Below are positions 22,772-63,071 of a DNA stretch of 64,000 nucleotides, in pieces. The DNA lies in NCBI GenBank assembly GCA_903813345.2, contig CAIIXF020000011.1, forward strand, positions 5,604,571 to 5,668,570. The letters are read 5' to 3'. Source of the stretch: Owenia fusiformis (Eukaryota > Annelida > Polychaeta > Sabellida > Oweniidae). Numbering within the stretch: the stretch's first letter is position 1; each line of letters starts with the position of its first letter. A program made the position numbers and the translations under genes. The notes beneath the pieces are model-generated. The model saw nothing but the letters and a program-made list of their open reading frames with translations. It was not told where the DNA came from and ran no database searches.

Positions 22772-24580
22772 ATGAAGTGTTATATTTATTACATCTTTTT
22801 GGTTATTTTCGCAAGGCATACATTCGAAACCGGAGATATGTACTATACTGGTCCTTTTAAAGGCATACGAAAGCTTAATGGAGACGAAAACGTACGCGAA
22901 ATCAGAGATACATCTCCACAACAGAATGCCAGTATCAAAACTGAAAATGAAATGGAGAAAAAAACATGTGATCAGAAAATGCGCACGTGTAAGGACAGAT
23001 GCGGTGTGCCGAAATATACGAGCAGTCTCAGTGAGTTTTACTGCCAATGTGACGACAAATGTGCCCACTACCAAGACTGTTGTGCTGATTTTGAGAGCGA
23101 GTGCAGCATCATCTACAACAACACAAAATATGGTGAATTGACGAGTGGGGAAAGATCTAAATATGGTTGTATCAAAATAAGCCAAACGGAGATGTTGTAC
23201 ATGGACCAAACTTGCGCAAGCGAGCATTTTGGGACTGATTTAGAAGAAAAATGTAGGAACAGAAATACCCTCCTCAGTTTATTACCAGCATCTGACGTCG
23301 AAACAGGTAGTTTATGTATATTGACGTAATTTAATTCTAAGTTAAATCATGTAATTTATATATAAATATGTCGACTTTTCCTATAGATTGTACATGCGTG
23401 AAGTTATTACAAAATTGGTTTTGACGCTTATCTGAAAAATAACAGTAAACAAATTAATATCTCCTGGAAATCATTTTTACAGTGCTTCTAAATTAATTGA
23501 GTCCCTTTTGGTGGTATCTGATGGAGGGACGTTTATGAGAAAATTGTAGGCCAAAGCTCACCTACTTCAAATTTTGTTCCAGGTATACAGTATAGCAACA
23601 TATTTTGCGCAAGATGTAACAATGTCAAGTCTCCTGTATTGTGGCAGACAAAATACAGGTGTGATCGAGACGTATTGGATAAGTCGGATTTTCAGAACCC
23701 TGGACCAAATACCTTAACGAGAGTTATGAATTCCCCTTTTTGTTCTGTTGAGTATATCGCTCCTTCAAATGATAATCTACAACCGAGGCCATGCATACCA
23801 ACTATCCATACATGTCCGGATGGAACAGATCGTTTGCTGGCCTATCGGTGTGCGAACTCTAACTTAGACCCTTATTCTACATACAAACAAAAATACCATG
23901 CCTATCATAACTGGTATTGCCTCATATGTACAGAAACTGAACGTCCATTGCCTTCGTGTACCGTACGATTGAGTCATCTAAGGAGCCCAAACTTACCCTT
24001 GTTTTCGTTTAAATTAATGGTGGATGTGACATCTGAGAATGGAATAAGACTGAGGTCTCAAGCTGATCATGGTATCGATGGATTAGATGTTGAGGTAGGG
24101 TGTAACTCGGACAATATTTGCAAGGCTTTAACTTGCCCAAAAGCGTATGTACGAGATGGGAATGAATGCAAATTGGTGAGCACCATTGTTCCAGTACAAA
24201 TCACCTGCTATTTCTACATTGACCCGGAAGATCATGTATTTCATGCCATCAAGACTTACATCAAACAAATTTTTGATTTAGTTGGTCTCATTTTAATCCG
24301 CCATGTTCGTGTTTATGATCAATTCATATTTAATACATCTTTCCCTAAAAACTACACTTCGCCTCAGATTTACAAGGAGATGGTATCAGACTCCGAACGC
24401 ATGAAAGAAAAAGTTGGAATTGCTCTAACACAGCTTAAGGACATCAATGTCACGTATGATATGTCGTTTATAAAACATAGGGTCGGTCATGTCATGGAAA
24501 AGGTGACAAATAGTGGATCTCAAACCGGTTCCGGAATGGCATGGATGTTCTACATATTTTTGTTCATGAAAATATGTTAA
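22772..24580 (+). CDS. Somatomedin-B/CAxCN ectodomain protein, copy 1
   Basis: Two exons, 22772-23306 and 23583-24580, with a 276-bp GT-AG phase-1 intron; 510 aa. Residues 1-20 form a signal peptide. A somatomedin-B domain spans about 66-111 (Cys 66, 73, 77, 91, 93, 97, 103, 104, 111, with the diagnostic CQCDDKC and DCC pair). The intron falls just before YSNIFCARCNN (182-192), a motif I associate with ectodomains of lophotrochozoan secretin/adhesion-type receptors. More cysteines follow, including CKALTCPKAYVRDGNEC. No seven-helix region is present: the protein ends in SGSQTGSG plus a hydrophobic run (MAWMFYIFLFM) and KIC, resembling a GPI-attachment signal. N-glycosylation sequons include QNAS, YNNT, FNTS, KNYT and INVT. 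The ATG was chosen because it directly begins the signal peptide. Function unknown; likely extracellular, surface-tethered or secreted. Confidence 0.9.
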
Positions 24581-24637
24581 GAGAACAAATGCACGTGAAC
24601 TCACATTGGCAATTTTGTTCATAAAACTGAAATTGTA

Positions 24638-24643
24638 AATAAA
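24638..24643 (+). terminator. Poly(A) signal AATAAA of copy 1
   Basis: AATAAA 58 bases after the TAA stop, so the transcript very likely ends here and no 7TM exon follows. Conserved in copy 2 (31367-31372). Confidence 0.75.
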
Positions 24644-25022
24644 ATAGAATTGTCAGAGATGTTGTAATCAATTTCATGTCTCAAATAGACAACACAGTTT
24701 AAGTTGAATAGAAAATCGGAACGAAAACTTACAACGTATAAATCGCATAGCTACATGTAGTTATCTCGCTTAGCAAGGGGCTGCTCGCAATGATGTTCAT
24801 TTTTTAATGAATCCACTCAGTAAAATTACGATTCCTCTGCACCATGAAATCATTCGAGTACCTATGTGTTCCTGAGACATTCGACATCCGGGAATGTTAA
24901 CGTTCACCCAAATTTCCTTGTTATATTGACGAAACTTATGACTTAGATCGAGAAGACAATATTTGAGAGACACAAAGAATTACAAGCGAAAATCCTTTAC
25001 AAAAGTGTTCCAGGGACTCTTA

Positions 25023-25437
25023 CAGGGCTGTCAACTTGGGACCATCTAACATGCGTGACTTCCAAATGTTGAACACCTTCCTTCAAACTTTGGACAGCTT
25101 CAGTGAAATTGGTATTTTGGACACCTAAATTTTTTCCAGGGGGGGGGGGGGTAGGTGTAAATTTTTTCGAAACAAATGCGTGATATATACACATATTTTG
25201 TACAGAATGCGTGACATAAACGGCAATCGCGTGCAAAAACCGAACGGAATGCGTTCGCTTTTTTTCGCCGTTTGGTATTTTACCGTGTCGCGATTTCACG
25301 AAAAACAATTTTTTAAAATTTCAGCAAAATGCGTGATTTGCGTGATATTTGATCATACACGCTAAATTGATGCGTGATTTCTATTTTTCAGCAAATGCGT
25401 GACAATCACGCCTAATGCGTGAGGGTTGACAGGGCAG
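25023..25437. mobile_element. Nonautonomous TIR element with 6-bp TSD (unit 1)
   Basis: CAGGGCTGTCAAC at the left and GTTGACAGGGCAG at the right are imperfect TIRs flanked by CTCTTA on both sides (25017-25022 and 25438-25443). The interior contains many TGCGTGA motifs. Unit 3 has the corresponding empty site at about 46250. The same insertion is in unit 2 at 31619-32030. Confidence 0.82.
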
Positions 25438-25526
25438 CTCTTATCTACTTGGCTAAGGTTTTATTTGAAGATACAGTGCCTTATTAAGCAGGTAAATGTG
25501 GTGTATACAGAACACCGAAGAAGGAC

Positions 25527-26555
25527 ACACCATTGGTCCGAATGCCAATTGCCCAAATTCAATGGTAAGAATCCCATTGGCGGTAATCCCAATCGTCCGA
25601 ATTTAATGGTAAGAATCCTATTGGTGCAAATCCCAATCGTCCGAATTTAATGGTAAGAATCCTATTGGTTCAAATCCCAATCGTCCAAATAAAATGGTAA
25701 GAATCCTATTGGTGCGAATCCCAATCGTCCAAATTCAATGGTAAGAATCCTATTGGTGGAATCCCAATCGTCCAAATTCCATGGTAAGAATCCTATTGGT
25801 GCGAATCCCAATCGTCCGAATTTAATGGTAAGAATCCTATTGGTGCAAATCCCAATCGTCCAATTTCAATGGTAAGAATCCTATTGGTGCGAATCCCAAT
25901 CGTCCTAATTCAATGGTAAGAATCCTATTGGTGCAAATCCCAATCGTCCAATTTCAATGGTAAGAATCCTATTGGTGCGAATCCCAATCGTCCTAATTCA
26001 ATGGTAAGAATCCTATTGGTGCGAATCCCAATCGTCCGAATTTAATGGTAAGAATCCTATTGGTGCGAATCCCAATCGTCCGAATTTAATGGTAAGAATC
26101 CTATTGGTGCAAATCCCAATCGTCCAATTTCAATGGTAAGAATCCTATTGGTGCGAATCCCAATCGTCCTAATTCAATGGTAAGAATCCCATTGGTGGAA
26201 TCCCAATCGTCCAAATTCCATGGTAAGAATCCTATTGGTGCGAATCCCAATCGTCCTAATTCAATGGTAAGAATCCTATTGGTGCGAATCCCAATCGTCC
26301 TAATTCAATGGTAAGAATCCCATTGGTGGGAATACCAATCGTCCGAATTTAATGGTAAGAATGCTACTGGTGCGAATCCCAAATCGTCCTAATTCAATGG
26401 TAAGAATCCTATTGGTGCGAATCCCAATCGTCCAAATTCAATGGTAAGAATCCTATTGGTGCGAATCCCAATCGTCCTAATTCAATGGTAAGAATCCCAT
26501 TGGTACGAATCCAAATGTTCCGAAACCCGCATGTCTGAATCCCGTTCGTCCGAAA
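25527..26555. repeat. 44-bp minisatellite downstream of copy 1
   Basis: More than 20 copies of a 44-bp unit built from AATCCTATTGGTGCGAATCC, CAATCGTCC, AAATTCAATGGTAAG. Each unit carries GGTAAG, and the CCTATTGG/CCAATCG parts are near-complementary, so units can form short hairpins. Also present after copies 2 and 3. Confidence 0.95.
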
Positions 26556-27036
26556 CCTAATGATTGTCGATATGTTATTTTATTTTAATGTTTAAACAAA
26601 CGTCTGAGACGCTAAAGTTGTTCCGATTTGATGGAAAAACTTTCTTAAGTCCATTTACACCCCCCTTAAATGATTGATGAGTGCCTGCCGGGTGTGAGGT
26701 CGGGCTCGGCCGAGTGAGCACCTCTTGCTGTATACGCCCCATCCACTGTGATATACACAGTGGAACACCCGTGACAGAACACCTTCCCCAGGGTTGGTGC
26801 CTGGTAGTTAAATTAAGCTTTTAGGTGTACTAATAGTTAGAGCTACTGCATGTCTGTTGACATACATCATATCATTATATTAATTTTGATCAGAAGGCAA
26901 AAGGCTGAAACAGAAGCATCGTCATAAGATCTGTGTTACTAGCTGCTATATTAAACATTCTTAGGGTGACCAATTATCCAAAATGGTATTTAAATATGAT
27001 TTTGATTATTAAATGATAATTTTTAGAAGGATTTCA

Positions 27037-27548
27037 TGTTTTATCCCCATTTCGTCCCTTCCCACTTCGCCCCTTCCCATTTTGCCCCTCATTTATTCCC
27101 ATTTTGCCCCTTTCCCAATTCGCCCTTTTCCCATCTCGCCCCTTCCCATTTTGCCCCTTTGGCATTTCACCCCTTTCCCGTGTTGCCTCCTTCCCATATC
27201 GCCCCTTTCCCTTATCGCCCCTTCCCATTTCGCCCCTTCCCATGTCGCCCCTTCCCATTTCGCCCATTCCCATTTTAGATCAATAACAGGTTTTGTTCAA
27301 ATATTATTCAATTATTTAGGGGCAAAATGGGAAGGGGCGAAATGGGAATAAATGAGGGGCGAAATGGGAAAGAGGACAATTGGGAAGGGGCGAAGGGGGA
27401 ATGATAGGAGGCTGTGATATCTCACGAAATGGGAAGGGGGCTGAATGGGACAGGGGCGAAATGGAATGGGGGCAAAATGGGTAAGGGGCAATTTGGGAAA
27501 GGGGCGAAATGGGAAGGGAGAAAAGTGGAAAGGGGCGAAATGGGAAGA
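27037..27548. repeat. Palindromic pyrimidine/purine minisatellite
   Basis: The left half repeats CCCATTTYGCCCCTT about 14 times; the right half repeats its complement, GAAGGGGCGAAATGGG. The two halves flank a 60-bp spacer, so the array is a large inverted repeat that could form a hairpin. It generates several spurious Ser/Pro/Phe ORFs. Confidence 0.92.
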
Positions 27549-27554
27549 CACCGG

Positions 27555-27900
27555 ATTTCATCTGTATTTAATCAGTATTGGAGCTGTACTAGAGCGGTAT
27601 TAAATATCCCTGTCCAATACCGATGCATCGGTATTTGATCGGTATTTGATCGGTACTTGATCGGTATTGGAGTTTCACTGAAGCCATATTAAATAGCATA
27701 GTCCTATACCGGTGCATCGTTATTAGAGCTATATAAGATCGGTACTAGGTCGGTATTTGGTCGGTATTTGGTTAAAGCTGATTGGCTGACAGGACTTCTA
27801 AATTAGCTTATATGCATGATAAATTTTAGCAGGATTTCATCGGTATTAGTTCGGTATTAGACAACTACATAAGGTCGGTATAAGGTCGGCATTTAATATG
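27555..27900. repeat. CGGTATT-rich degenerate repeat
   Basis: GATCGGTATTTGATCGGTA and GCGGTATTAAAT motifs recur at irregular intervals. Similar sequence occurs at 41232-41570 and, more divergent, at 34690-34920. Confidence 0.65.
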
Positions 27901-28956
27901 CAACGTCCATTGGATTTTTTCACTTGGGTCCGATTAAAGTCTGGAAAATCATTCGTGGCCCTCAGAGGGTAATTTGGAACTGCTATCTAGATTACAGGGT
28001 ATGGTTTTATTTAAAATGATTTCAAAGGAAAATATTTTGTGATTATTAGACTAATTTGTATGCTCTTTGTTATTGATAGGTTTTCGTATTATTGAAAGAA
28101 AATATAAATAACCTAGAATATTGTAAACTGATCCTGATTATGAAGCAAATATTGTATTATATTTATTATACATTGTAGGTCATATTTCTAGCCTATTCAA
28201 AATTCTTTAACGCTAAAACGGTGAAAAAGATATTGCAAAAGGAAAACTGCAACTTTATAAATGTTCCACTCCCCCCCCCCTATCTTAACCCTGCCACCCC
28301 TACCCTCTTTGCCACAAGATTACAGTCAAGACAAACGATATGATTTCATCTCTCTTGGGTTTGATAAGAGTACTAGATATTTTTAAAATAAATACCAGAC
28401 GCTTGTATGAACTCATTTTTGTGGGACATTTTGTGAACCACTGAAACGTGTCCCGTTTTGCTCCTAAGTCTTCCTAATTTTACATGTTTTGCAACGTAAG
28501 TTTTTAGATATAAATAGCCGATCTGAGTTTGCCATACAAGAAAGTAAAGTGACCATCTCTGAATATTTAACGGCACAGATTCTTTGAATGAATGCCCATT
28601 TTAATATTTCATAACTATATGATGTTCTACATTTTCAGTCTTTAGAATCTCATTTGAAATACATAGAAATGGTAATTATTGTCAATATTTTTTATGATTT
28701 ATATGAAATAAATTTGAGATCTTGCTTCTAAGTTTAACTAAATGGCTCTATCAAATGTGAGGGGATGACTTAAACCTTATTATACGAGGCCTGTTATTGA
28801 AATGTAATTCGGGAGGGGTGTTTTGAAGTTGCGACTTGTCCAATAAACCGTTCACTGGGTTTTGCGAAACACCTTGTCAGTGAAAGGGTAGATAGAAGCG
28901 AGCTGTGGCCAATGGATAAATAGAGAGAGAGGAAATAAATAAAATAAAAACCTATA

Positions 28957-29285
28957 CCTATAGAGGAAGGGATAGAAGTAAAAGAATTATATAATTGAGA
29001 AATGGTATAATTAGAGACGCAGGTAATAATTATAAATAACATAGCACTTTATTGTAATTAATTATATACGATCGTTTACCTATAGAGGAAGGGATAGAAG
29101 TAAAAGAATTATATAATTGAGAAATGGTATAATTAGAGACGCAGGTAATAATTATAAATAACAAGCACTTTATTGTAATTAATTATATACGATCGTTTAC
29201 CTATAGAGGGAGGGATAGAAGTCAAAGAATTATATAATTGAGAAATGGTATAATTAGTGACGCAGGTAATAATTATAAATATATC
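28957..29285. repeat. About 121-bp tandem repeat, 2.7 copies (unit 2)
   Basis: The unit begins CCTATAGAGGAAGGGATAGAA and contains GACGCAGGTAATAATTATAAA and ATATACGATCG. Starts at 28957, 29079 and 29200. Unit 3 has fewer copies (43677-43880). Confidence 0.92.
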
Positions 29286-29497
29286 CTTCGTAAGAATAAT
29301 GTTTTACTGATAAGTGATTATTGATATAAGTGATGCTTGCAGTAATTATAAAAATGATAGTATGTTATCATAATCAATTCAATTATTTAATCGCGTAGCG
29401 TTATTTTTCCAGTCTTGTATTGCAACGCCAAGAGAAGAAATTACACGTGGAGATCTAAGAAACATATAGTGTTTTCAGTTCAGCTTTGGCACGTAAA

Positions 29498-31306
29498 ATG
29501 AAGTGTTGCCTGTATTACATCATTTTTGTTATATTCACAAGGCATACATTCGAAACCGGAGAAATGAACTATACTGGTCCTTTTAAAGGCATACGGAAAC
29601 TTAATGGAGGCGAAAACGTACGCGAAATCAGAGATACATCTCCACAACAGAATATCAGTATCAAAACTGAAAATGAAATGGAGAAAAAAACATGTGATCA
29701 GAAAATGCGCACGTGTAAGGACAGATGCGGTGTGCCGAAATATACGAGCAGTCTCAGTGAGTTTTACTGCCAATGTGACGACAAATGTGCCCACTACCAA
29801 GATTGTTGTGCTGATTTTGAGAGCGAGTGCAGCATCAACTACAACAACACCAAATATGGTGAATTGACGAGTGGGGAAAGATCTAAATATGGTTGTATCA
29901 AAATAAGCCAAACAGAGATATTGTACATGGACCAAACGTGTGCAAGCGAGCATTTTGGGACTGATTTAGAAGAAAAATGTAGGAACAGAAATACCCTCCT
30001 CAGTTTATTACCAGCATCTGACGTCGAAACAGGTAGTTTATGTATATTGACGTAATTTAATTCTAAGTTAAATCATGTAATTTATATATAAATATGTCGA
30101 CTTTTCCTATAGATTGTACATGCGTGAAGTTATTACAAAATTGGTTTTGACGCTTATCTGAAAAATAACAGTAAACAAATTAATATCTCCTGGAAATCAT
30201 TTTTACAGTGCTTCTAAATTAATTGAGTCCCTTTTGGTGATATTTGATGGAGGGACGTTTATGAGAAAATTGTAGGCCCAAGCTCACCTCCTTCAAATTT
30301 TGTTCCAGGTATACAGTAAAGCAACATATTTTGCGCAAGATGTAACAATGTCAAGTCTCCTGTATTGTGGCAGACAAAATACAGGTGTGATCGAGACGTA
30401 TTGGATAAGTCGGATTTTCAGAACCCTGGACTAAATACCTTAACGAGAGTTATGAATTCCCCTTTTTGTTCTGTTGAGTATATCGCTCCTTCAAATGATA
30501 ATCTACAACCGAGGCCATGCATCCCAACTATCCATACATGTCCGGATGGAACAGATCGTTTGCTGGCCTATCGGTGTGCGAACTCTAACTTAGACCCTTA
30601 TTCTACATACAAACAAAAATACCATGCCTATCATAACTGGTATTGCCTCATATGTACAGAAACTGAACGTCCATTGCCTTCGTGTACCGTACGATTGAGT
30701 CATCTAAGGAGCCCAAACTTACCCTTGTTTTCGTTTAAATTAATGGTGGATGTGACATCTGAGAATGGAATAAGACTGAGGTCTCAAGCTGATCATGGCA
30801 TCGATGGATTAGATGTTGAGGTAGGGTGTAACTCGGACAATATTTGCAAGGCTTTAACTTGCCCAAAAGCGTATGTACGAGATGGGAATGAATGCAAATT
30901 GGTGAGCACCATTGTTCCAGTACAAATCATCTGCTATTTCTACATTGACCCGGAAGATCATGTATTTCATGCCATCAAGACTTACATCAAACAAATTTTT
31001 GATCTAGTTGGTCTCATTTTAATCCGCCATGTTCGTGTTTATGATCAATTCATATTTAATACATCTTTCCCTAAAAACTCCACTTCGCCTCAGATTTACA
31101 AGGAGATGGTATCAGACTCCGAACGCATGAAAGAAGAAGTTGGAATCGCTTTAACACAGCTTAAGGACATCAATGTCACGTATGATATGTCGTTTATAAA
31201 ACATAGGGTCGGTCATGTCATGGAAAAGGTGACAAATAGTGGATCTCAAACCGGTTCCGGAATGGAATGGATGTTTTACATATTTTTGTTGATGAAAATA
31301 TGTTAA
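29498..31306 (+). CDS. Somatomedin-B/CAxCN ectodomain protein, copy 2
   Basis: Exons 29498-30032 and 30309-31306, same intron position, phase and length (276 bp) as copy 1; 510 aa. All somatomedin-B cysteines, the CARCNN motif and the hydrophobic C-terminal tail are kept. In exon 1 it shares variants with copy 3 (GEMNYTG, LNGGEN, QNIS); in exon 2 and the intron it is almost identical to copy 1. Differences from copy 1 in exon 2 are few (for example KNST for KNYT, MEWMFYIFLLM for MAWMFYIFLFM). Intact and presumably functional; role unknown. Confidence 0.9.
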
Positions 31307-31366
31307 GAGAACAAATGCACGTGGACTCACATTCATGGCAATTTTGTTCATAAAACTGAAATTGTA

Positions 31367-31372
31367 AATAAA
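31367..31372 (+). terminator. Poly(A) signal AATAAA of copy 2
   Basis: AATAAA 61 bases after the stop, at the same place as in copy 1. Confidence 0.75.
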
Positions 31373-31618
31373 AAAGAATTGTCAGAGATGTTGTAATCAA
31401 TTTCATGTCTCAAATAGACAACACAGTTTAAGTTGAATAGAAAATCGGAACGAAAACTTACAACGTATAAATCGCATAGCTACATGTAGCTATCTCGTTC
31501 ACCCAAATTTCCTTCGTTATATTGACGAAACTTATGACTTAGATCGAGAAGACAATATTTGAGAGACACAAAGAATTGCAATTGAAAATTCTTTACAAAA
31601 GTGTTCCAGGGACTCTTA

Positions 31619-32030
31619 CAGGGCTGTCAACTTGGGACCATCTAACATGTGTGACTTCCAAATGTTGAACACCTTCCTTCAAACTTTGGACAGCTTCAGT
31701 GAAATTGGTATTTTGGACACCTAAATTTTTTCCAGGGGGGGGGGGTAGGTGTAAATTTTTTCGAAACGAATGCGTGAAATATACACATATTTTGCACAAA
31801 ATGCGTGACATAAACAGCAATCGCGTGCAAAAACCGAACGGAATGCGTTCGCTTTTTTTCGCCGTTCGGTATATTACCGTGTCGCGATTTCACCAAAAAT
31901 TTTTTTTAAAATTTCAGCAAAATGCGTGATGTGCGTGATATTTGATCATACACGCTAAATTGATGCGTGATTTCTATTTTTCAGCAAATGCGTGACAATC
32001 ACGCCTAATGCGTGAGGGTTGACAGGGCAG
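31619..32030. mobile_element. Nonautonomous TIR element with 6-bp TSD (unit 2)
   Basis: Orthologous to the insertion at 25023-25437: same TIRs and the same CTCTTA flanks (31613-31618 and 32031-32036). It was therefore present before units 1 and 2 separated. Confidence 0.82.
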
Positions 32031-32107
32031 CTCTTATCTACTTGGCTAAGGTTTTATTTGAAGATACAGTGCCTTATTAAGCAGGTAAAGGTGTATACAG
32101 AACACCG

Positions 32108-33060
32108 AAGAAGGACACATGCACCATTGGTCCGAATGCCAATTGCCCGAATTCAATGGTAAGAATCCCATTGGCGGGAATCCCAATCGTCCGAATTTAA
32201 TGGTAAGAATCCTATTGGTGCAAATCCCAATCGTCCGAATTTAATGGTAAGAATCCTATTGGTGCAAATCCCAATCGTCCAAATTAAATGGTAAGAATCC
32301 TATTGGTGCGAATCCCAATCGTCCAAATTCAATGGTAAGAATCCCATTGGCGGGAATCCCAATCGTCCGAATTTAATGGTAAGAATCCTATTGGTGCAAA
32401 TCCCAATCGTCCGAATTTAATGGTAAGAATCCTATTGGTGCAAATCCCAATCGTCCAAATTAAATGGTAAGAATCCTATTGGTGCGAATCCCAATCATCC
32501 AAATTCAATGGTAAGAATCCCATTGGCGGGAATCCCAATCGTCCGAATTTAATGGTAAGAATCCTATTGGTGCAAATCCCAATCGTCCGAATTTAATGGT
32601 AAGAATCCTATTGGTGCGAATCCCAATCGTCCAAATTCAATGGTAAGAATCCCATTGGCGGGAATCCCAATCGTCCGAATTTAATGGTAAGAATCATATT
32701 GGTGCGAATCCGAATCGTCCTAATTCAATGGTAAGAATCCTATTGGTGCGAATCCCAATCGTCCAAATTCCATGGTAAGAATCCTATTGGTGCGAATCCC
32801 AATCGTCCTAATTCAATGGTAAGAATCCCATTGGTGGGAATACCAATCGTCCGAATTTAATGGTAAGAATGCTACAGGTGCGAATCCCAATCGTCCTAAT
32901 TCAATGGTAAGAATCCTATTGGTGCGAATCCCAATCGTCCAAATTCAATGGTAAGAATCCTATTGGTGCGAATCCCAATCGTCCTAATTCAATGGTAAGA
33001 ATCCCATTGGTACGAATCCAAATGTTCCGAAACCCGAAACCTGCATGTCTGAATCCCGTT
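32108..33060. repeat. 44-bp minisatellite downstream of copy 2
   Basis: About 20 copies of the same unit as at 25527. A higher-order repeat of about 175 bp (four units beginning with an AATCCCATTGGCGGG variant) is visible at 32160-32690. The array ends in CCGAAACC and GAATCCCGTTCGTCCG as after copy 1. Confidence 0.95.
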
Positions 33061-34625
33061 CGTCCGAAAGCTAATGATTGTCGATATGTTATTTTATCGT
33101 CTTCGTCTCTTTCCGATACAAAATTTCTCGAACAGAATATATCCTGTATTGCACTTCAAATCATTCAATAACTTACTTATATTATTGAATTATATATATT
33201 GACGTATTTTGTAGATTTATCCATAAATTCTAACAAAATGTCTCAAATCTTTTGTTCACTTGAAGATATAATACCATTTATATAATATATTATAATTCAA
33301 ATACGATTTTTCAATTTTTTCTAATATAGCAATCGTTTATAATTTTTAAAGCTATATGTATCTTGCAAAAGTGTTACCAATTCTAACATTCTGTGACCTT
33401 TTAAATGTTTCATAATTAAGGATATTATTGTACTCATTTTAGGCTATTATATTCAAATGAATTGAAATAAACATAAACATGCGATACGATTATCTAGTTG
33501 TAAATTAATTATTAATTGAGGAAGAAAGAGAATAGATTAGGATAACCAAAACAACAGAATTGTCAGCTGTCACTCTCATATTATTAATGAGCCCCATAAC
33601 CTAGTTTATTTTTGGAGGCTTTGTTTAAAAAACCTCCTACCTCATACCCACCTACCAACGTACATGGGACATGATACAGTCTTTGAAGGGTTCAATTTTA
33701 AAGATCTTAGTTTATATTATTAAATCTTAGTTTATGATGAATTATAGATGCATTTGTAACGACCCTGGATAGCAAGTTGGTACTACATCCCAGCTGGGTT
33801 CGATTCCCACTCGGGGCATCGGATTTAGCACACTTTCTTTCAATTGTTTTTATCTGGCTTGTTGGACTTATGCTCGCGGTCGTTAGTTATTTATTCCCCT
33901 GGAGCGCACTCGGGTCATTACACATTAAAATGCATCCATATGCCTTTATTTATGGATCTGTCATCTGTCTAGTCATAAAATGAAGCCGGAATTTTAGGTA
34001 AATGTTAATAATTTGAGCTATTTTGAGATTTAATAATCTTTAAAATTGAACCCTTCAATGATTGTATCCTGTTCCACGTAGGTGGGTAGGTGGGTATGAG
34101 GCAGACTGTATGAGGTAAGTTTTTTTTTATACAAAGTTATTTTTGAATAGACGCTGTCATTTACGGATGCCCATACGTCTCAGGAAAGCACTACTTGAAT
34201 GGACATCATGGTGCATAGAAATCATACTTTTACTGTGTGGCTAAACAAAAAACAAGGTTATGGCCAGGGCCACTTAGTAATACCTTTCAGGACGATACGC
34301 TCCCTTTGGCACCATTCTTTTATTTATATACATCAATAAATTGACGATATCTCCAATTCTGTCCATTATTTTTACACAAAATTAGACAATAAAGTTGTTA
34401 AAATATGATAATTCGTATGAACAATTTATTTCAGAGATAAAAAATTTAAAGTATAGGTCCCAGAGTATAGGCAATTTGCAGTTTTTCCCTAAAAACGCTC
34501 TTCGTCACCAGGCCAACATTTTCCTCTTATATGCATGACTTATGTATGCACACCGCGAAGGGGTTTAACGTCTATGAACGGCCGTTAAGCTACTTTTGAA
34601 ATGACTGTGATCCTTCCCCAAGTAA
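33061..34625. repeat. Segmental duplication: tail of unit 2
   Basis: Matches 53046-54890 (tail of unit 3) apart from the insertion at 53357-53734. It includes the tRNA-like stretch. A CCTACCTCATACCCACCTACC motif (33640) and its complement GTAGGTGGGTAGGTGGGTAT (34080) face each other. No protein-coding gene seen. Confidence 0.88.
33760..33819 (+). repeat. tRNA-like sequence with intact B box (unit 2)
   Basis: GGATAGCAAGTTGGTACTAC resembles a D-arm, followed by GGGTTCGATTCCC, a perfect B box/T arm, and ACTCGGGGC. No matching 5' acceptor strand, so a tRNA-derived SINE or tRNA pseudogene is likelier than a functional tRNA. The copy at 54078-54137 keeps the B box. Confidence 0.45.
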
Positions 34626-42668: not shown

Positions 42669-42761
42669 GTCACATAAAATGAATTGATCTGGTTTAAAGT
42701 CTGTTTTAAAAGTAACATATGTACGTAATTTACGTTGTTCAAGAATTTCCTGATGCCATTT

Positions 42762-47180: not shown

Positions 47181-47255
47181 ATGAAGGAATTTTTGAAAGT
47201 ATATTTCATCGATCTGCATTCTGGATACTGGCATAGAATCTTAACTGAAATTCGA

Positions 47256-51730: not shown

Positions 51731-52289
51731 ATCCTTTGTTATCCCACCCAAAGTATGATGTCATATATATATCAAGTTGAAGAGTTGTATACGCTGCTCA
51801 GGAGTTTACGCTATCCAGGAGTTGCTAGTGTTGGTTTAATGATATTGCAGTTATACAATGCTATTATACATAGGTTATTTACTGAGAGGGATTCAATATT
51901 GGTTTTATTCCGAGAGACAATATGATATTTCCCGAGGGCCCGGGATATCTGGGATAACTGTACCCCTATCAATTTATCTTTTTGGGCCCTTAATCTTATC
52001 ACTTTTGTTTACCTTTTTACTCAGTCGGAGAGAAGGAATCCTAAGAGAGCAATAATTCTACATGTGCGTCGTGCAAGATTTCCATTAAACGTGTAACTAA
52101 ACAGCCTCTCTAATAAAGTCAATTAGACGTTTTTACACGTTGGCTCTCCAAATTGGAGGAAATAAAGAATCATATCATATTATATCATAGATGAAGCAAT
52201 CATCCAATCAACATAAGCTCACGAATGTCACAATTAAACTGTTTTAGTTATAATTTGATAAACAGTGGTAACGTACATCTACTAGTTTA

Positions 52290-52703
52290 TCATTGTTCCA
52301 CAGATGGATGACAGATAATTTCCAATAGCTCGTCATGTTTACCGAGGACGAAAGATGCTTGTCCACCATTTTGAATGATACTAACTGGAGTCAGGGTCAT
52401 CAAGCTATGGAACAATGGTTTATGAAAATAGATTGGGTTACTAAAGCTTGCCATGTTAAAGGCGATTGAACTATGTGTTTGAACAACGTCCAGTACATTA
52501 TAATATTTAAAAGTATAAATTTTTGAAAATACATAGAAAGGATCTTCGCCCGCAGGACGTGTATTTTGAATGCCTTGAGAAGAACGCAAATATGGGTAAT
52601 GGGTAACGGTGTTGCAATAGTAGCATTTAAAAATCTGTTCCTCTCGAGATTTATGGTCTTCTGAAATTATACTATTAATTGGTGTTGCTGCATCATTGCT
52701 CAA
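52290..52703 (-). CDS. Unrecognised 137-aa ORF at the right TIR of the 6.4-kb element
   Basis: Starts inside the right inverted repeat (minus strand) and runs inward, the position expected of an element-borne gene. It has a CYYC pair near residue 27, a YPYLRSSQGIQNTRPAGEDP stretch and no obvious transmembrane segment or known catalytic motif. Composition is less repetitive than its surroundings. It may be an exon of a lost transposase or a captured host exon, or a chance ORF; I do not recognise it. Confidence 0.35.
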   Translation of the reverse strand: MSNDAATPINSIISEDHKSREEQIFKCYYCNTVTHYPYLRSSQGIQNTRPAGEDPFYVFSKIYTFKYYNVLDVVQTHSSIAFNMASFSNPIYFHKPLFHSLMTLTPVSIIQNGGQASFVLGKHDELLEIICHPSVEQ

Positions 52704-52985
52704 ATCTAGAGGAGTGTTGTTGCATCTTCGGTTTGGTGTTGTAGCATCAATAGTGAGGAACTAAAACCGTGAACTTATTGCTTCTTGGTGATGGTACATG
52801 TATACTAATGACAGTTTCTTTAAACATAGATCGTGCGCTAACTGCACGTGTATGGTTATAGAGCAACTCGTCCTAGAAATGGGTTTAAATTGGGGAAACA
52901 AAATATCGTACGAAAATCGATCACCGGAAGTCTGGCCATCTTGATGCAACAACACGGTGTTGTTGCATCACGATACTCCCCAGTG

Positions 52986-53045
52986 ATGGTAAGAATCCTT
53001 TCCCGAAACCCACATGTCTGAATCCCGTTCGTCCGAAACCTTATG
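52986..53045. repeat. 44-bp minisatellite, right remnant (unit 3)
   Basis: Resumes at the TSD with ATGGTAAGAATCC, then the array's usual terminal variant GAATCCCGTTCGTCCGAAACC. Confidence 0.9.
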
Positions 53046-53356
53046 ATTGTCGATATGTTATTTTATCGACTCTTGTTTCAATACAAAATTTCTCGAACAG
53101 AATATATCCTGTATTGCACTTCAAATCATTTAATAACTTACTTATAGTATTGTATAATATATATTGACGTATTTTGTAGATTTATCCGTTTATTCTAACA
53201 AAATGTCTCAAATCTTTTGTTTACTTGAAGATATAATACCAAAAAAAAGTGAAATGTTTTTGATATGGGGATCGATTATAATTTAAAGCTATATGTATTT
53301 TGCAAAAAAGTGTTAACAATTCTAACATTCTGTGACCTTTTAAATGTTTCATAACT

Positions 53357-53734
53357 GAGGTTATAACATACCTATGATGATGTATAGTGCAAAGTGTACA
53401 CAAGACAGCGGGCCAATACAAGTTTTGAAAACCCCGCACCCGCTAACTTTCTGATTGGTCAAGGCGCTGACGTCATAACCAATCAATCGAAGATAAAACT
53501 GCGCGAGCAATTTTTCTAAACTCATTTCAATCATTTTCAAACCATTTGTTTGTCAATTCTATAAGAAAACGGTACTCTCTGACCAGTCTACATCATCATA
53601 GGTATGTTATAAATCGTTTATGTCACTATCGTGACACATATGCCCTCGGTTCTCAGAGATCAATGTCCCTCCCAAGGTCGGGCCATATATCACTGAGACC
53701 TCGGGCATATATGCCACGATAGTGACATAACCTC
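53357..53734. mobile_element. Insertion in the unit-3 tail with inverted repeats
   Basis: Absent from unit 2 near 33414. Ends GAGGTTATAAC and GACATAACCTC are inverted. Internally, CCTATGATGATG pairs with CATCATCATAGG, and TTATGTCACTATCGTG (53617) pairs with CACGATAGTGACATAA (53715). Nonautonomous; TSD unclear. Confidence 0.7.
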
Positions 53735-54077
53735 TAAATATTATTGTAGTCATTTTAGGCTATTTATATTGAAATGAATTGAAATAAACATAAACATGCG
53801 ATACGATTTTCTGTTGTAAATTAATTATTAATTGAGGAAGAAAGAGAATAGATTAGGATGTCCAAAACAACAGAATTGTCAGCTGTCACTCTAATAGTAT
53901 TAATGTGCCCCATAACCTGGTTTATTTTTTGAAGCTTTGTATAAAAAACCTCCTACCTCATACCCACCTACCCACGTACATGGGACATGATACAGTCTTT
54001 GAAGGGTTCAATTTTAAAGATCTTACAGGTAGTTTATTAAATCTTAGTTTATGATTAATTATAAATGCATTTGTAAC

Positions 54078-54137
54078 AACCCTTGATAGAAAATTGCTAC
54101 TACATCCCAGCTGGGTTCGATTCCCACTCGGGGCATC
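54078..54137 (+). repeat. tRNA-like sequence with intact B box (unit 3)
   Basis: Paralogue of 33760-33819. GGGTTCGATTCCC and ACTCGGGGC are kept, while the D-arm-like part has changed (TTGATAGAAAATTGCTA), so there is no selection for a tRNA fold. Confidence 0.45.
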
Positions 54138-54892
54138 GAATTTAGCACACTTTCTTTCAATTTTTTTATCTGGCTTATTCTCCTGGAGCGCACTCGGGTC
54201 ATTACACATTAAAATGCATCTACATGCCTTTATTTATGGATCTGTCTAGTCACAAAATGAAGCCGGAATTGTAGAAAAATGTTAATAATTTGAGCTATTT
54301 TGAGGTTTAATAATCTTTAAAATTGAACCCTTCAATAACTGTATTATGTTCCACGTAGGTGGGTAGGTGGGTATGAGGTTGGAGGTTTTTTATACAAAGC
54401 TATTTTTGGATAGACGCTGGAATTTACGGATGCCGATACGTCTCAGGAACATACTACTCCAATAATCTTGCAAGGACATCATGGTGCATAGAAATAATAC
54501 TTTTACTGTGAGACTCAACAAAAAAACAAGGTTATGGCCAGGGCCAATTAGTAATACCTTTCAGGACAATACGCTCCATTTGGCTCCATTCTTTTATTTA
54601 TATAGATCAATAATTCGACGATATCTCCGATTCAGTCCATTATTTTCACACAAAATTTTGACAATAAAGTTGTTAAAATGGGATAATTCTTATGAAAAAT
54701 TTATTTCAGATATAAAAAGTTTAAAGTATAGGTGCCAGAGTATAGGCAATCTGCAGTTTTCCCCTAAAAACGCCCTTCGTCACCAGGCCAACATTTTCCT
54801 CTTATATGCATGACTTATGTATTCACGCCGCGAAGGGGTTTAACGTCTATGAACGGCTGTAAAAGCTACTTTTGAAATGACTGCGATCATTC

Positions 54893-56719
54893 CTCATTAA
54901 AATCTGGAAAATCATCTGTGGCTCTTAGAGGGTAATTTGGAACTGCTCTCTAGGTTACAGGGTATTGTTTTATGTAAAATGATTTCAAAGGAAAATATTT
55001 TGTGATTATTAGACTAATTTGTATGCTCTTTGTTACTTAAAGGTTTTTGTATTATTGAAAGGAAATATCAATTACCTAGAATATTGTAAACTGATCCTTT
55101 TTGCAATTATTTCAAAAGGGTGCTGTTTTCGTAAAATTGATAATTGCCACAGTTTTGCAATTGTAAATTGTAATATTTACCTTTTCTCTGGTCTCATGTA
55201 AGTCGTGAAAATTATGAAGCAAATATTGTAAATTATATTTACTATACAGGGTGTCCCGAAAGTATGGCCCCTCCTAGGCAGACATATACCAGTGTCGTCA
55301 TAGTATGTATCATATATCGTTTTAACGCTTATCCAAAGTTACATTGATTCACCAAGTATCATGGTTTAACTCTCAAATGTGAAAAAATTACAGGCATTTC
55401 AAAATTTAGTGTTTGGTCAAAATTAAGTTCAATTTTACACCACATCACTAGTCAATGTGTCCTTCCGGGCCATTCTTAATTATCGGGTCGGATAGATATT
55501 GAGTTGGAAAAAGAGAGCGGTGAGTGTAGAAACTCTAAGGAAACTCTTCTAAAGTGCCTTATTAGGTTTAAGAGGGTTACAAAATTCCATATCCCTATTT
55601 GAAGGGCTTTTAAGGTCATATCTGAAAATAATTGCTGCTGTTAACATTGCCAAAAGGGGGCTCATTGACTAGTAATGTGGTGTAAAATTGAACTTATTTT
55701 GACAAAACACTAACTTTTAAAATGACTGTAACTTTTTCCCATTTGGGAGTTTAACCATGATACTTGGCAAATCAATGTAACTTTGGATAAGCTTTAAAAT
55801 GATATATGACACATACTCTGAGAACACCGGAATATGTCTACCTAAGGGGGGCCATACTTACGGGACACCCTGTACATTGTTGGTCATATTTCTGGCCTAT
55901 TCAAACTTCTCTTACGCTAAAACTGTGCAAAAGATATTGCAAAAGGAAAACTGGAACTTTATAAATGTTTCACCCAACCCCCTATCTTAACCTGGCCACC
56001 CCTACCCTCTTTTGCCACAAGATTACAGTCAATACAAACTCCCTTGGGTTTGATAAGAGTAGTAATATTTTTAAAATAAATACCCGAAGTTTGAGTATGA
56101 ACTCATTTTTGTGGGACCTTTTGTGAACCACTGTTCAAAGTGTCCCGTTTTGCCCATAAGTCTTCCTAATTTCACAAGTTTTGCAACGTAACTTTTTAGA
56201 TGTAAATAGCCGGCCGAGTTTGACATAAAAGAAAGTAAAGTGACCACCTCGGAATATTTAACGGCACAGATTCTTTGAATGAATGCTCGTTTTATTATTT
56301 CATAACTATATAATGTTCTACAATTTCAGTCTTTAGAATCTTCTTTGAAATACATAGATATGGTAATTATTGTCAATATTTTTTATGATTCATATGAAAT
56401 GAATTTGAGATCTTGATTCTAAGTTTAACTAAATGGCTCTATCAAATGTGAGGGGGTGACGTAAACCTTATTATACGAGGCCTGTTATTGAAATGTAACT
56501 CGGGAGGGGTGTTTTGAAGTTACGACTTGTCCAATAAACCGTTCACAGGATTTTGCGAAACACCTTGTCAGTGAAAGGGTAAATAGAAGCGAACTGTGGC
56601 CCATGGATAAATGGAGAGGGGGGGGATAGAAGTATAAAGAAAAGGAAAACTGAGAAATTGAATAATTAGTGACATGGGTAATAATTATAAATAACATGGC
56701 ACTTTATTGTAATTAATTA
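54893..56719. repeat. Segmental duplication: upstream part of unit 4
   Basis: Matches 27935-29060 of unit 2, with an extra 0.11 kb at about 55097-55209 and the element at 55247-55872 inserted. No gene. Confidence 0.88.
55247..55872. mobile_element. TA-flanked foldback MITE with CAGGGTGTCCCG ends
   Basis: CAGGGTGTCCCGAAAGTATG pairs with the right end complement. TA lies at both flanks (55245-55246 and 55873-55874), and the empty site TTATACATTGTAGGTC is readable in unit 2 (about 28167) and unit 3 (about 41832). The arms are about 280 bp, making the element a near-palindrome. Mariner-type TA target; no transposase. Confidence 0.93.
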
Positions 56720-59592
56720 CCCTCTGTATCAAAAGTATTTTCCTATTGAGAAAACCATTAGATAACTTTTGTATAAGGCAAACAAACTTAATGAAACTTT
56801 CCATGCATAATTTGAGGCATTTTTTATTATTTGAGGCATATAATACACCCTCTGTGAAAATTTAGAGACAATTGATTGATTTGTACTCAAAATATTACAT
56901 ACAGAACATAGCATATACCAAAAACACCAATGTGACTTTTTCCAAGTTTTTGACGTCAAACTTACCTAAGATTGCCAAACTGACCAAAATTAGGTTGCTC
57001 TGTAAAAGTATGCAGACAAAAGTCTTTATATATAAAATGCTAATTATGAGCAGAATGTGTTATTAAATATACAAAAAATGTACTCGGAATGTCCTCATAC
57101 ATTTTACTAACAGCCATGGACCATGTTGTACTCCACTTAACCCTTTCCCGACCAAAATTATTTGAGGAATTCAGAAATATGTTGTTACAATAAGCACTGC
57201 TATCCTTAATATATCAATGTTCGGTGCATTATGATTCAGAATTATTGCAATAAAATGGAAATATGATAGATTCTTTTGAATTAAATACCAAAAGTACATC
57301 AAGAATATTTAGAAGATAAAGCCCTGAAAAAATCATATTGACACATTAGTCACAAAATTATACTTATTGATGTCATTGGGCAGGAAAGGGGTAAATATTA
57401 AAGATCTAATAGCAAAGGTTTTGCAAAAATAAATCAATGCAGTGTAAAACAAATGTATGTATAATGAAGAAATAAATATTTAATGAAAAAAATAGATATG
57501 TGTTTGTAATATTGGTATTAACTTAAGATTAAAAAGTGTCACTATCTCTTTCATTTTTCAACAAATATAGGCTCACGTGACATATGACGCGGGGCAGTCA
57601 ATTTTGATCTATCGTTGACCATATCAGTATCAAACTGCCGATATTTCAACCTCGTCTTGCGAGGCCATTTTTATTTGAAACATCTTAAATTTGGTGTCAA
57701 AATAAAGCTGGTCACGCCCACTTTCAGAGTTATCAATGAATCATTTACTACGACTACTATATTCATTTAGGAGGCGTGTAAAGTTAACCAATCAGAAAGA
57801 CAATTGCTCCATATATGACAGTTCATTAACATATTCAGTGTTTACTATTGTTTTTCGCGTCATGACAACACGAGTAGTAACCAATCAAAATGCCGTATTT
57901 TATCACGTGAGTTCAGAGTGACATGCACGACATGTAAGTTTAGTCTGAGCTCAAGGAGGATTGGCTCCCAGGATCGAAACTCGATATTTTCCAACAATGA
58001 AAACGTCGAAATGTCGTTATTTTCTGAAATTAAAACCGACTATAAATTCAAAATAAACAGTTCAAAAGATTCGAACCAATATCTCGATCATTTCTTGTGA
58101 GTTTTGGAATTTTTCGTTTGGAAATAAGACCAAAATTCACGATTTAAATGTTGAAGTGAACAAAATGGCGGCTGTTTGAATTCGAATTTTGTATTACGAC
58201 ATACCCATATATGGGACAGAATATCGGTGGTGCACTCTGGGAGCCAATCCTCCTTGGTCTGAGCTGATCGCGATGTTGAATAATTTCTTCTCGGAATTTG
58301 TCCAGAGAAATCAGCGATTCTTAAGGTAGGATCTCCCATTTCTTCCTGTACAAGTTTTAACTTATCTCTATCGAATCCTAAAGTTTTGGATGAAGATATG
58401 AAGCATACGTTTAAAAACGAAGCGATTAATTTGACGATCTGATTTTGCAATTTGCAATGGCCAATTTACTGCAAGTCTGCGTGTATTTGACAAGAGATAG
58501 CGCCAAGTCTTGTATCCGAATGCTTGTTAAGCCACTCAAAAACAAGATCCATATTTTCTAAATTTGATAACTTTGCAGAGAGCCCGTTTTCATAACCTGT
58601 TTTCCGCGTCTAAATTCAAACTGAGTAGGATTATAAGATCGCTGGGATTCTCAGTCAATGGCAACGGGTCTTCATTCCAGAACGCACATTTTTTTAGTTG
58701 ATTCTCCGTCATAGTACTTGTCTAAAGTCCATATCTGCTCTTTTACTGGCATACTTGGACATATTTCCCCTCCTTAAATTGTCCTCCTTAAATAACACCC
58801 TCTCGCCGATTTATATATAGCCATTTCCCAGAACCCGGGAGTCAGAATCGCTGATGTTTGCCATATTGGACATGTTGAAATATGTACTGTAATATCTGTA
58901 ATACTAGGCATTGCCTGCTACGCGTAAGGGTCACGTGACTAGCTCGATACAGGAAAAATGGGGAATTTCGAAACAACAATTTTTGGGCACTTTTATTGCA
59001 AATTTCAGGTATTTATAAGTGTTTGTGGTATAAAATATAATCCACAGACATAAATGAACATCCAAACTACATATTTTATTACGTTTCGGAGCCTTTTTTG
59101 CTTTTAAAATGACATCTTTAAGGAAATATGGCATAACAATGAACAGTTAGGCAATACTGTTCTAAGACCCAAGTGTAAGGACTTTTGCATTGTTATTATA
59201 TAGCTTTCAGTGACACCTTTATTTTATGAAATATACAACTCTCATGAACAGGATCATTTGTAAAGTCTATAACATATTCTGATTGCTCATTATTAGCATA
59301 TTATATATAATTACCTTTGTCCACTTAGTTTTGCAGAGCAGCCTGACTTTGATCAGTTTGGCAATCTTAGGTAAGTTTGACGTCACAGGAAAAAGTCACA
59401 TCGGCGTTTTTGGTATATGCTATGTTCTGTATGTAATATTTTGAGTAAAGATTAACCAATCGTCTTCAAAATTTCGGATAATGTGTATCATATGCCTCAA
59501 ACTTTGTGTGGAAAGTTTCATTAAGTTTACTGGTCATTTACTAAAGTTCTTTGAAGTTTTCTTTAATAGGAAAATACTTTTTATACAGAGGG
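56720..59592. mobile_element. 2.9-kb long-TIR element with TA target
   Basis: Ends CCCTCTGTATCAAAAGTA and its complement; the arms pair for about 280 bp (56720-57000 and 59330-59592), including GTAATATTTTGAGTAAA-type and TTGACGTCA-type segments. TA flanks both ends, and removing it gives AATTAATTATATACGATCG, exactly the sequence found in units 2 (about 29056) and 3 (about 43776). The interior of 2.3 kb has no long ORF. Confidence 0.93.
57940..58260. repeat. Inverted repeat inside the 2.9-kb element
   Basis: CAAGGAGGATTGGCTCCC at about 57950 pairs with GGGAGCCAATCCTCCTTGG at about 58240. GTCTGAGCT also appears directly at both sites. No coding function recognised in 57000-59330 apart from this. 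Confidence 0.6.
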
Positions 59593-59937
59593 TATATACG
59601 ATCGTATACCGTATAGGGGAGGGATAGAAGTAAAATAATTATATAATTGATAACTGGTATAATTAGTGACGCAGGTAATAATTATAAATAACATGACACT
59701 TTATTACAATTTATAAACGATCGTGTAGCGTTAATTATTCTATCTTCTCTTACAATCGCTCTTGATTTAGGAACAGATCGATATCGTTTTCAGTTAGCTT
59801 CGCCATTGTAAAACTGAAGCATATTTCCATTGTCGTGCTAATTCTCATAAGAAATATACGCACGTGCCTTATTGTTTCTTGAATTAGTCTGAAACTTATT
59901 ATTAAGGTGATCTTTCCTTATGTTTTATTTCTATAGA
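59593..59937. other. Unit-4 upstream flank with one 121-bp repeat
   Basis: 59600-59720 is a single degenerate copy of the 121-bp tandem unit (GGGAGGGATAGAAGTAAAATA, GACGCAGGTAATAATTATAA). The following part, GAACAGATCGATATCGTTTTC and on, matches the flank of copy 1 (22430-22560) rather than copies 2 and 3. Confidence 0.75.
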
Positions 59938-60993
59938 CTCACGCCCGGTGATCGTAAAAAATGATGGAGGGGGGGATTAGGCGATTTCGGCAAGAAACTC
60001 AACAAATTTGGAAGATTTATTTTTTCAAGAGAAAATTTTCAACTGAATTGCCAAATGAATAGGCGCAGTGCATGGCAAAATATGTTAGGTCATCTGGTAT
60101 TTTTTGAACTGAAACCCTAAGATATAAAATCTATTAAAAATGTTTTTGCAATGAATCGGGCAACAATGGTTTACACGACCTGTAATAAATAGGTATAAGG
60201 GACGTTATTATCACAATACTAATGTCAATGCTCACTTTTTAAAGTTGGTGTCCATGCGTTATATAAAAAATAATCGAAACATACTAATTTGGGATGGAGG
60301 GGGGGTCGGATTGAGGGGGGATCACGTGTATATAAGACATGCTACTTGAATTTATAATTATGACTCCAAATTTTCCCATTTTTCATTCTCCAGAGATATA
60401 ATATCCAGTTTCTTACTTGGGTACTGAGTTTAGTGTTTTCAAATACACGAGTTCTTGTGAATTTTTTCCATCGTAAAGATATATAAATCCCCCCCCTCCA
60501 TCCAATCCCCCTCCATCCCAAATTAATTTATTTCGATTATTTTTTGTATAACGCATGGAAACAAACTTTAAAAAGTGAGCAATGTCATAAGTATTGTGAT
60601 AATAACGTCCCTCATACCTCTTTATTTACCCTTTGCATTCGTTTGACTTCATTTCTTAAAAGAGAGCTTCGTCTTCAGTTAAACTAGACTCTGCACGCAG
60701 GGTACTCTTTATAACAGGTCGTGTAGACCATTGTTGCCCGATTTATTGCAAAAACATTGACTTTTGCACGTTTGTGATGATGCGCCTTTTTTATTAGATC
60801 TCATATCTTAGAAGGGTATCAGTTCAAAAGAAACTAGATGTCCTGACATATTTTGCCATGCACTGCGCTTATTCATTTGGCAATTCAGTTGTAAATTTTC
60901 TCTTGAAAAAATAAATCCTCCAAATTTGTTGAGTTTTCTTGCAGAAATCACCTAATCCCCCCTCCATCATTTTTTACGATCACCGGGCGTGAG
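59938..60993. mobile_element. 1.06-kb palindromic foldback element
   Basis: CTCACGCCCGGTGATCGTAA pairs with TTACGATCACCGGGCGTGAG at the right end, and complementarity continues almost to the centre (about 60400), so the element is one long imperfect palindrome. The right arm carries an extra insert (60625-60710). TSD not evident; no ORF. Confidence 0.88.
60625..60710 (-). repeat. Fragment of the promoter-like dispersed repeat
   Basis: TTTGCATTCGTTTGACTTCA through AGACTCTGCACGCAGGGTA is the reverse complement of the two ends of the repeat at 4495-4935, with its middle missing. It interrupts the symmetry of the foldback. Confidence 0.7.
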
Positions 60994-61216
60994 ACTTCCT
61001 ATTACATATATTTCGTGAGAATAATATTTTTATTGATAATTGCTTTAAGTGATGCTTGCAGTAATTATATAAATGATAGTATGTTATCATAATTAATTCA
61101 ATTATATAATCGTGTAGCGTTATTTTTCCAGTCTTGTATTACAGCCCCAAGAGAAGAAATTACACGTCGGGATCTGAGAAACATATGGTGTTTTCAGTTC
61201 AACTTTGGCACGTAAA

Positions 61217-63071
61217 ATGAAGTGTTACATTTATTACATCAGTTTGGTCATTTTCGCAAGGCATACATTCGAAACCGGAGATATGTACTATACTGGTCCT
61301 TTTAAAGGCATACGGAAGCTTAATGGAGACGAAAACGTACGCGAAATCAGAGATCATACATCTCGACAACAAAATGCCAGTATCAAAACTGAAAATGAAA
61401 TGGAGAAACAAACGTGTGATCAGAAAATGCGCACGTGTAAGGACAGATGCGGTGTGCCGAAATATACGAGCAGTCTCAGTGAGTTCTACTGCCAATGTGA
61501 CGACAAATGTGCCCACTACCAAGATTGTTGTGCTGATTTTGAGAGCGAGTGTAGCATCAACTACAACAACACCAAATATGGTGAATTGACGAGTGGGGAA
61601 AGATCTAAATATGGTTGTATCAAAATAAGCCAAACAGAAATGGTATATATGGACCAAATGTGTGCAAGTGAGCATTTTGGGACTGATTTAGAAGAAAAGT
61701 GTAGGAACAGAAATACCCTGCTCAGTCTATTACCAGCATCTGACGTCGAAACAGGTATTTTATGTATATTGACGCAACTTAATACTGTTAAATCATGTAA
61801 TTAAAACCTATACTCGTAAATTGTGAAACTTTTCATAACAATCAAAAATCGACTTTTCGTATAGATAACATATACGTGAAGGCATTACAAAATAATTGGT
61901 TTTGACGCTTATCTGAAAATTAACATTAACAAATTAATATCTCCTGAAAATCATTTTACAGTGCTTCTAAAATAACTGAGTCCCTTTTGGGGATATTTGA
62001 TGGAGGGACGTATATGAAAAAATTGTAAGCCATTGCTCACCTATTTCAAATTTTGTTCCAGGTATACAGTATAGCAACATATTTTGCGCAAGATGTAACA
62101 ATGTCAAGTCCCCTGTATTGTGGCAGACAAAGTACAGGTGTGATCGAGACGTATTGGATAAGTCGGATTTTCAGAACCCTGGACCAAATACCTTATCGAG
62201 AGTTATGAATTCCCCTTTTTGTTCTGTTGAGTATATCGCTCCTTCAAATGATAATCTACAACCGAGGCCATGCATACCAACTATCCATACATGTCCGGAT
62301 GGAACAGATCGTTTGCTGGCCTATCGGTGTGCGAACTCTAACTTAGACCCTTATTCTACTTACAAACAACAATACCATGCCTATCATAACTGGTATTGCT
62401 TCATATGTACAGAACCTGAACGTCCATTGCATTCGTGTACCGTACGATTGAGTCAGATAAGTCAACGAAGCAGCCCCGACTTGTCCTTGTTTTCGTTTAA
62501 AATAATGGTGGATGTGACATCTGATAATGAAATAAGACTGAGGTCTCAAGCTGGTCATGGCATCGTTGGATTGGATGTTGAGGTAGGGTGTAACTCGGAC
62601 AATCTTTGCAAGGCTTTAACTTGCCCAAAAGCGTATATACGAGCTGGGGGTAAATGCAAATTGGTAAGCACCATTGTTCCAGTACAAATCAACTGCTATC
62701 TCTCCATTGAACTAGAAGAGTATACATTTCATGTCATCAAAACTTACATCAAACAAATTTTTGATCCAGTTGGTTTGATTTTAATCCGAAATGGTCCTGA
62801 TTATGATCAATTCACGTTCAATGCATCTTTCCCTGAGAACTACACATCGCCTCAGATTTACAAGAAAATGGCATCAGACTCTGAACGCATGAAAGAAAAA
62901 GCTGGAATTGCTTTCACACAGCTTATGAAGGACATAAATATCACGTATGATGTGTCGTTTATAAAACATAAGGTCAGTCATGTAACGGAAAAGGTGCCAA
63001 ATAGTGGATCTCAAACCGGTTCCGGAATGGCATGGATGTTTTACATATTTTTGTTCATGAAAATATGTTAA
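61217..63071 (+). CDS. Somatomedin-B/CAxCN ectodomain protein, copy 4
   Basis: Exons 61217-61754 and 62062-63071, phase-1 GT-AG intron of 307 bp; 515 aa, the longest copy. One extra codon in exon 1 (RDHTSRQQ) and extra residues in exon 2 (LSQISQRSSPDLS for LSHLRSPNLP; TQLMKDIN). Signal peptide, somatomedin-B cysteines, CARCNN and hydrophobic tail (MAWMFYIFLFM) are all kept. Exon 1 resembles copy 1 (GDMYYTG, LNGDEN, QNAS); the C-terminal half resembles copy 3. It is the most divergent member, with changes concentrated at about residues 400-450. ATTAAA variants about 60 bases after the stop replace AATAAA. Intact ORF; function unknown. Confidence 0.9.

Follow-up and report, generated by a model that had tools for sequence, protein, structure and literature searches.

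Do the near-identical genes that follow one another along a chromosome of the polychaete Owenia fusiformis form a young tandem family, and is every one of them still intact? The 64,000-nucleotide stretch analysed here (hereafter the window; assembly GCA_903813345.2, contig CAIIXF020000011.1, forward-strand positions 5,604,571 to 5,668,570) carries four such copies, head to tail on the same strand, across 22772-63071 (Table 1). A preliminary description had presented them as four intact genes for a protein with a somatomedin-B (SMB) ectodomain. We consider it probable that the copies are a young tandem family in which a unit carrying the SMB gene was duplicated, the copies later exchanged sequence and copy 2 decayed. 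In kind, the array is a clear but ordinary young gene family; its value lies in the fact that 40 kb of one young array are enough to tell duplication apart from exchange between copies, from the insertion of mobile elements and from early decay.

The two-exon structure claimed for all four copies is borne out. Each consists of two coding exons around a single phase-1 GT-AG intron, with exon 1 ending in GAAACAG before the GT and GTTCCAG preceding exon 2; these motifs, together with conservation between the copies, are the basis on which we infer the splice sites. The introns measure 276, 276, 275 and 307 bp in copies 1 to 4, and pairwise identity ranges from 89.0 to 96.4% over about 2 kb. At the base composition of the window, even one open frame of 331 codons has a chance probability of about 3e-11. 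Since the window extends just 929 bp past copy 4, four copies is a lower bound.

The claim that all four genes are open does not hold for copy 2. Under the splice inferred for every copy, the third full codon of its exon 2 is a stop (CAG TAA AGC, vs CAG TAT AGC in copies 1, 3 and 4), giving a predicted product of 181 amino acids (aa). The frame past this stop is clean for 328 codons, and the stop is therefore recent, or an allele, or a sequencing error. In exon 2, copy 2 carries six nonsynonymous derived changes (the stop included) and two synonymous ones, vs none and four in copy 1, with one further change between the two copies left unpolarised. For exon 1 the corresponding counts are six and zero in copy 2 and three and four in copy 1, with nine ambiguous; polarity here is clouded by the mosaicism described below, and with that proviso the SMB half of copy 2 likewise appears to lack any sign of constraint. 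The pattern leans towards real decay, and a recent pseudogene is the most likely identity of copy 2. No alternative acceptor past the stop keeps the phase of the donor, judged by eye only. The broken copy shows how counting long open frames inflates the number of intact genes.

It is highly improbable, in our estimation, that copy 2 is alive and yields a soluble 181-aa protein that has only the SMB domain and would act as a decoy or competitor beside anchored full-length forms. Because its stop codon follows closely on the splice junction, within the final coding exon, the transcript might be spared decay; if this were true, a single mutation in an array that recombines would have produced the decoy. 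Decay of copy 2 remains our preferred reading.

Coding constraint on the array is supported by the ratio of nonsynonymous to synonymous substitution rates (dN/dS), calculated without codons that are gapped or stopped in either row, and by the in-frame coding indels. The ratio is 0.29 for copies 1-2, 0.41 (1-3), 0.34 (1-4), 0.57 (2-3), 0.49 (2-4) and 0.43 (3-4), with Fisher p values from 1.3e-6 to 0.045 on rounded counts. When segments are compared with copy 4, constraint is strongest in the part that contains the SMB domain (0.05-0.07); for the initial part of exon 2 the ratio is as high as 0.81-0.88. The ratio is below 1 in 23 of 24 segment pairs, with 0.88 the highest of these; the exception, at 3.17, comes from copies 2-3 upstream of the SMB domain and can be disregarded, as it is based on 0.5 silent changes. 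Values above 1, as expected of a diversifying immune array, are thus found in none of the whole-gene pairs and in no segment pair of any weight. Indels are multiples of three in 4/4 coding cases and 1/6 intronic cases (p 0.048), and copies 1 and 4 differ at 99/1533 exon sites vs 34/272 intron sites (p 0.00095). As far as their coding parts go, copies 1, 3 and 4 appear to be functional.

These figures bear on whether all the copies are dying or silent duplicates that owe their similarity to gene conversion and not to selection, which we hold to be unlikely. Such an account would fit the broken copy 2, the evident exchange between copies and the loss of a proximal polyadenylation signal from copy 3. 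In copies 1 and 2 an AATAAA stands at 24638 and 31367, about 60 bp past the stop codon; copy 3 lacks about 70 bp right after its stop codon (24588-24658 of copy 1), this signal included, so that its first listed one is ATTAAA at 46075, and copy 4 has ATTAAA at 63112 and 63130. The account would also fit the introns of copies 1-3, which are as alike as their exons: intron and exon 1 divergence is 1.4% and 4.1% between copies 1 and 2, and 2.5% and 3.4% between copies 1 and 3. This low intron divergence is, however, as expected if exchange had homogenised the middle of the gene. Set against silent duplicates are the dN/dS below 1 in every one of the six pairs, the excess of intron over exon differences between copies 1 and 4, and the coding indels, all in frame.

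Exchange between the array copies is most likely, because the two ends of the gene block pair them differently. Counted from 22554 on, with gapped columns excluded, 51 sites are informative (two against two). Nineteen of them group copies 2+3 against 1+4, every one at or before 22929; 28 group 1+2 against 3+4, every one at or after 23336; the remaining four group 1+3 against 2+4. The sites fall into five runs, an order with so few runs arising in 0 of 100,000 shuffles (lowest shuffle, 16). Divergence between copies 2 and 3 is 0.5% upstream and 10.4% over the final 450 bp of exon 2; between copies 1 and 2 it is 11.8% and 2.0%, respectively.

The same order argues against an assembly artefact, in which two haplotypes or misjoined long repeats were placed in tandem and the true copy number is smaller. 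We judge this improbable. The stretches before copies 2 and 3 do match at 97.5-98.8%, and the two parts of exon 2 differ by only 0.7-2.0% between copies 1 and 2, as an artefact would allow. But the intron of copy 4 differs by 12.5-12.9% from those of the other copies, and the spacers between copies 2 and 3 and between 3 and 4 each have their own insertions. The mosaic order is unlike that of simple allele pairs, so two haplotypes simply joined in tandem fail as an explanation, although one pair could still be allelic.

The open copies would encode a protein of about 510 aa in which a signal peptide and a single SMB domain are followed by an extensive cysteine-rich extracellular region and a hydrophobic tail. 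The N-terminus of each copy is hydrophobic and signal-peptide-like by eye. In copies 1 and 4, those scanned, SMB is the sole Pfam family above cut-off (PF01033, E 3e-7, 30.9 and 31.1 bits vs a curated cut-off of 23.1). SMB domains have eight conserved cysteines, and the eight of this stretch are invariant across all four copies. Searched against the PDB, copy 4 matches the SMB domain of vitronectin (E 0.003) and, weakly, ENPP1 (E 0.5). One eight-cysteine SMB domain is what the array shares with these proteins; it differs from them in the 330-aa cysteine-rich region of exon 2, which convincingly fits no curated family. For this region Pfam returned only weak matches (NBD94 in two of four members, best E 0.029; DUF1660 in one of four, E 0.2), and a PDB search gave no match up to E 10. 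The C-terminus reads GSG followed by 14 hydrophobic-biased residues (mean hydropathy 1.5-1.8). This short tail is best taken as a putative glycosylphosphatidylinositol (GPI)-anchor signal, the protein otherwise being secreted, a guess that stays at plausible because the hydrophobic run is short and a lysine lies close to its terminus. As far as domain content allows, the protein would probably serve in extracellular binding, by means of its SMB domain and cysteine-rich region.

Alternatively, the copies might be the ectodomain part of SMB-bearing adhesion-like G-protein-coupled receptor (GPCR) genes, with seven-helix exons further downstream or lost, which seems to us very unlikely. The cysteine motifs of exon 2 presumably resemble the ectodomains of SMB-bearing molluscan adhesion-like receptors, and another receptor of this kind, NvX, is from a sea anemone. 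An SMB domain is placed in the N-terminal region of the adhesion-like receptors NvX and planarian PARF1 (PMC3261222), and an expansion of SMB-bearing adhesion-like GPCRs is described in amphioxus (PMC2246102). The array copies resemble these receptors in their SMB domain. They differ in that neither a 7tm nor a GPS family was returned by Pfam for copies 1 and 4 or for the exon 2 regions, and the four downstream stretches surveyed yielded no seven-helix region: among 27 plus-strand frames of at least 50 aa, a single membrane-like segment occurs in two, and no frame carries more. That survey covered 24581-29300, 31307-35000, 45876-48500 and 63072-64000; shorter exons, 35001-44073 and 48501-61216 lay outside it. 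The frame of exon 2 closes with a stop codon at the same place in all four copies, and the AATAAA signals of copies 1 and 2 follow closely. Searches of openly licensed literature found no paper joining somatomedin B with mollusc and adhesion GPCR, nor one joining somatomedin B with tandem duplication and mollusk.

We therefore return to a young tandem family with an SMB ectodomain protein. Its copies would have arisen by repeated duplication of a unit comprising the gene and its downstream repeats, been remodelled later by unequal crossing-over or gene conversion, and been separated by mobile elements inserted between them. Several points weigh against this reading. For the stop of copy 2, an allele or a sequencing error is a possible explanation, and the relaxed exon 2 pattern of this copy lacks significance against copy 1 (p 0.06). 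The copy 2-3 pair is marginally below neutrality (p 0.045), and the exon-intron contrast is present for copy 4 but absent within copies 1-3. AlphaFold models built on the four near-identical rows were unusable (mean predicted local distance difference test scores of 44.1 and 31.3), and the C-terminal hydrophobic run is short, as noted above. What stood of the preliminary description is thus a recent tandem expansion and a probable secreted or surface SMB protein, and what fell is the intactness of copy 2.

Comparable organisation is known elsewhere. Sea-urchin Sp185/333 genes are clustered, similar, two-exon genes with a mosaic second exon, in segmental duplications edged by GA/GAT repeats, and pseudogenes are called almost absent there (PMC5103432). 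The array is likewise made of clustered, similar, two-exon, mosaic genes, but its repeats are minisatellites and one of its four copies is broken. Mussel myticin-C genes are tandem, and recombination or gene conversion is given as the source of their recombinant sequences (PMC3164099); in this they are like the array, although myticin-C is an antimicrobial peptide. Both likenesses are of organisation and not of compared sequence. Insect class C scavenger receptors include members with an SMB domain (PMC5222524); array copies 1 and 4 and the exon 2 region, however, matched neither CCP nor MAM in Pfam. By analogy with arrays of the Sp185/333 type, an immune function is possible. No description of this array was found in openly licensed papers, among the titles and abstract starts of the matches listed. 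Relatives sought in viral and prokaryotic contigs gave 3 and 21 pattern-matching stretches, none encoding a relative.

Table 1 Features of the array and its surroundings, in positions of the window.
Feature	Position	Strand	Remarks
Copy 1	22772-24580	+	exon 1 22772-23306, intron 23307-23582, exon 2 23583-24580; 510 aa, open
Copy 2	29498-31306	+	exon 1 29498-30032, intron 30033-30308, exon 2 30309-31306; premature TAA in exon 2
Copy 3	44074-45875	+	exon 1 44074-44608, intron 44609-44883, exon 2 44884-45875; 508 aa, open
Copy 4	61217-63071	+	exon 1 61217-61754, intron 61755-62061, exon 2 62062-63071; 515 aa, open
In-frame stop of copy 2	30317-30319	+	TAA; TAT in the other three copies
SMB domain, copy 1	22985-23107	+	residues 72-112; PF01033 profile match
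Shared gene block	22554-24768	+	matches 29280-31497, 43879-45882, 61003-63229; begins about 218 bp before ATG
121-bp repeats before copy 2	28955-29281		related: 43673-43880, about 56619-56719, about 59593-59727
44-bp minisatellite, unit 1	25532-26516		also 32126-33031 and 46342-46551
Inverted minisatellite, unit 1	27046-27547		also 40721-41222
Tail of unit 2	33422-34620		87.5% identical to 53738-54896 of unit 3
Junction, unit 3 tail and block leading to copy 4	54891-54896		from self-comparison
LINE-type element	35086-39546	+	between copies 2 and 3; open frames of 305 and 1180 aa
MITE-like element	59935-60996		inverted ends, arms 81-89% matched; inserted before copy 4

Comparison of the window with itself shows units that are collinear but ragged. 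The repeats once described as common to the units are shared less evenly. The 121-bp repeats precede copies 2, 3 and 4, with none matched before copy 1, and the 44-bp minisatellite lies downstream of copies 1-3, the window ending soon after copy 4. The inverted minisatellite is seen in units 1 and 2 and the tail in units 2 and 3, neither in all four. The junction placed near 54893 is confirmed: the tail match stops at 54896, and the next block opens at 54891 (in comparison with 41594) or 54896 (with 27933). Sequence before copy 1 (22391-22551) matches 59732-59890, which the MITE-like (miniature inverted-repeat transposable element) insertion parts from the gene block of copy 4. The LINE-type (long interspersed nuclear element) insertion encodes an endonuclease and a reverse transcriptase in its second, longer frame.

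Two further stretches lie among the spacers. The match between the sequences preceding copies 2 and 3 is interrupted at about 42252-43298, within which two minus-strand open frames of 137 and 179 aa (42348-43301) are perhaps the end of a retroelement frame; one of the two was scanned and had no Pfam match above cut-off. After copy 3, a 467-bp tandem unit is present in 2.6 copies at 47252-48466.

The window as a whole gave no Rfam match at gathering score. Upstream of the array, a plus-strand open frame at 11896-12390 matches PDB entry 3dcy ("regulator protein", E 1.3e-11), which we take to be TIGAR, and is likely part of a neighbouring histidine-phosphatase-type gene. Reverse-transcriptase elements number three, at 8053-10398 (+), at 15562-18302 (-) and the LINE-type element of Table 1. 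A 36-bp unit repeated in 27 copies at 13891-14868 is open on both strands (frames of 335 and 353 aa), and palindrome-like inverted matches, 72-85% identical, lie around 2933-4268.

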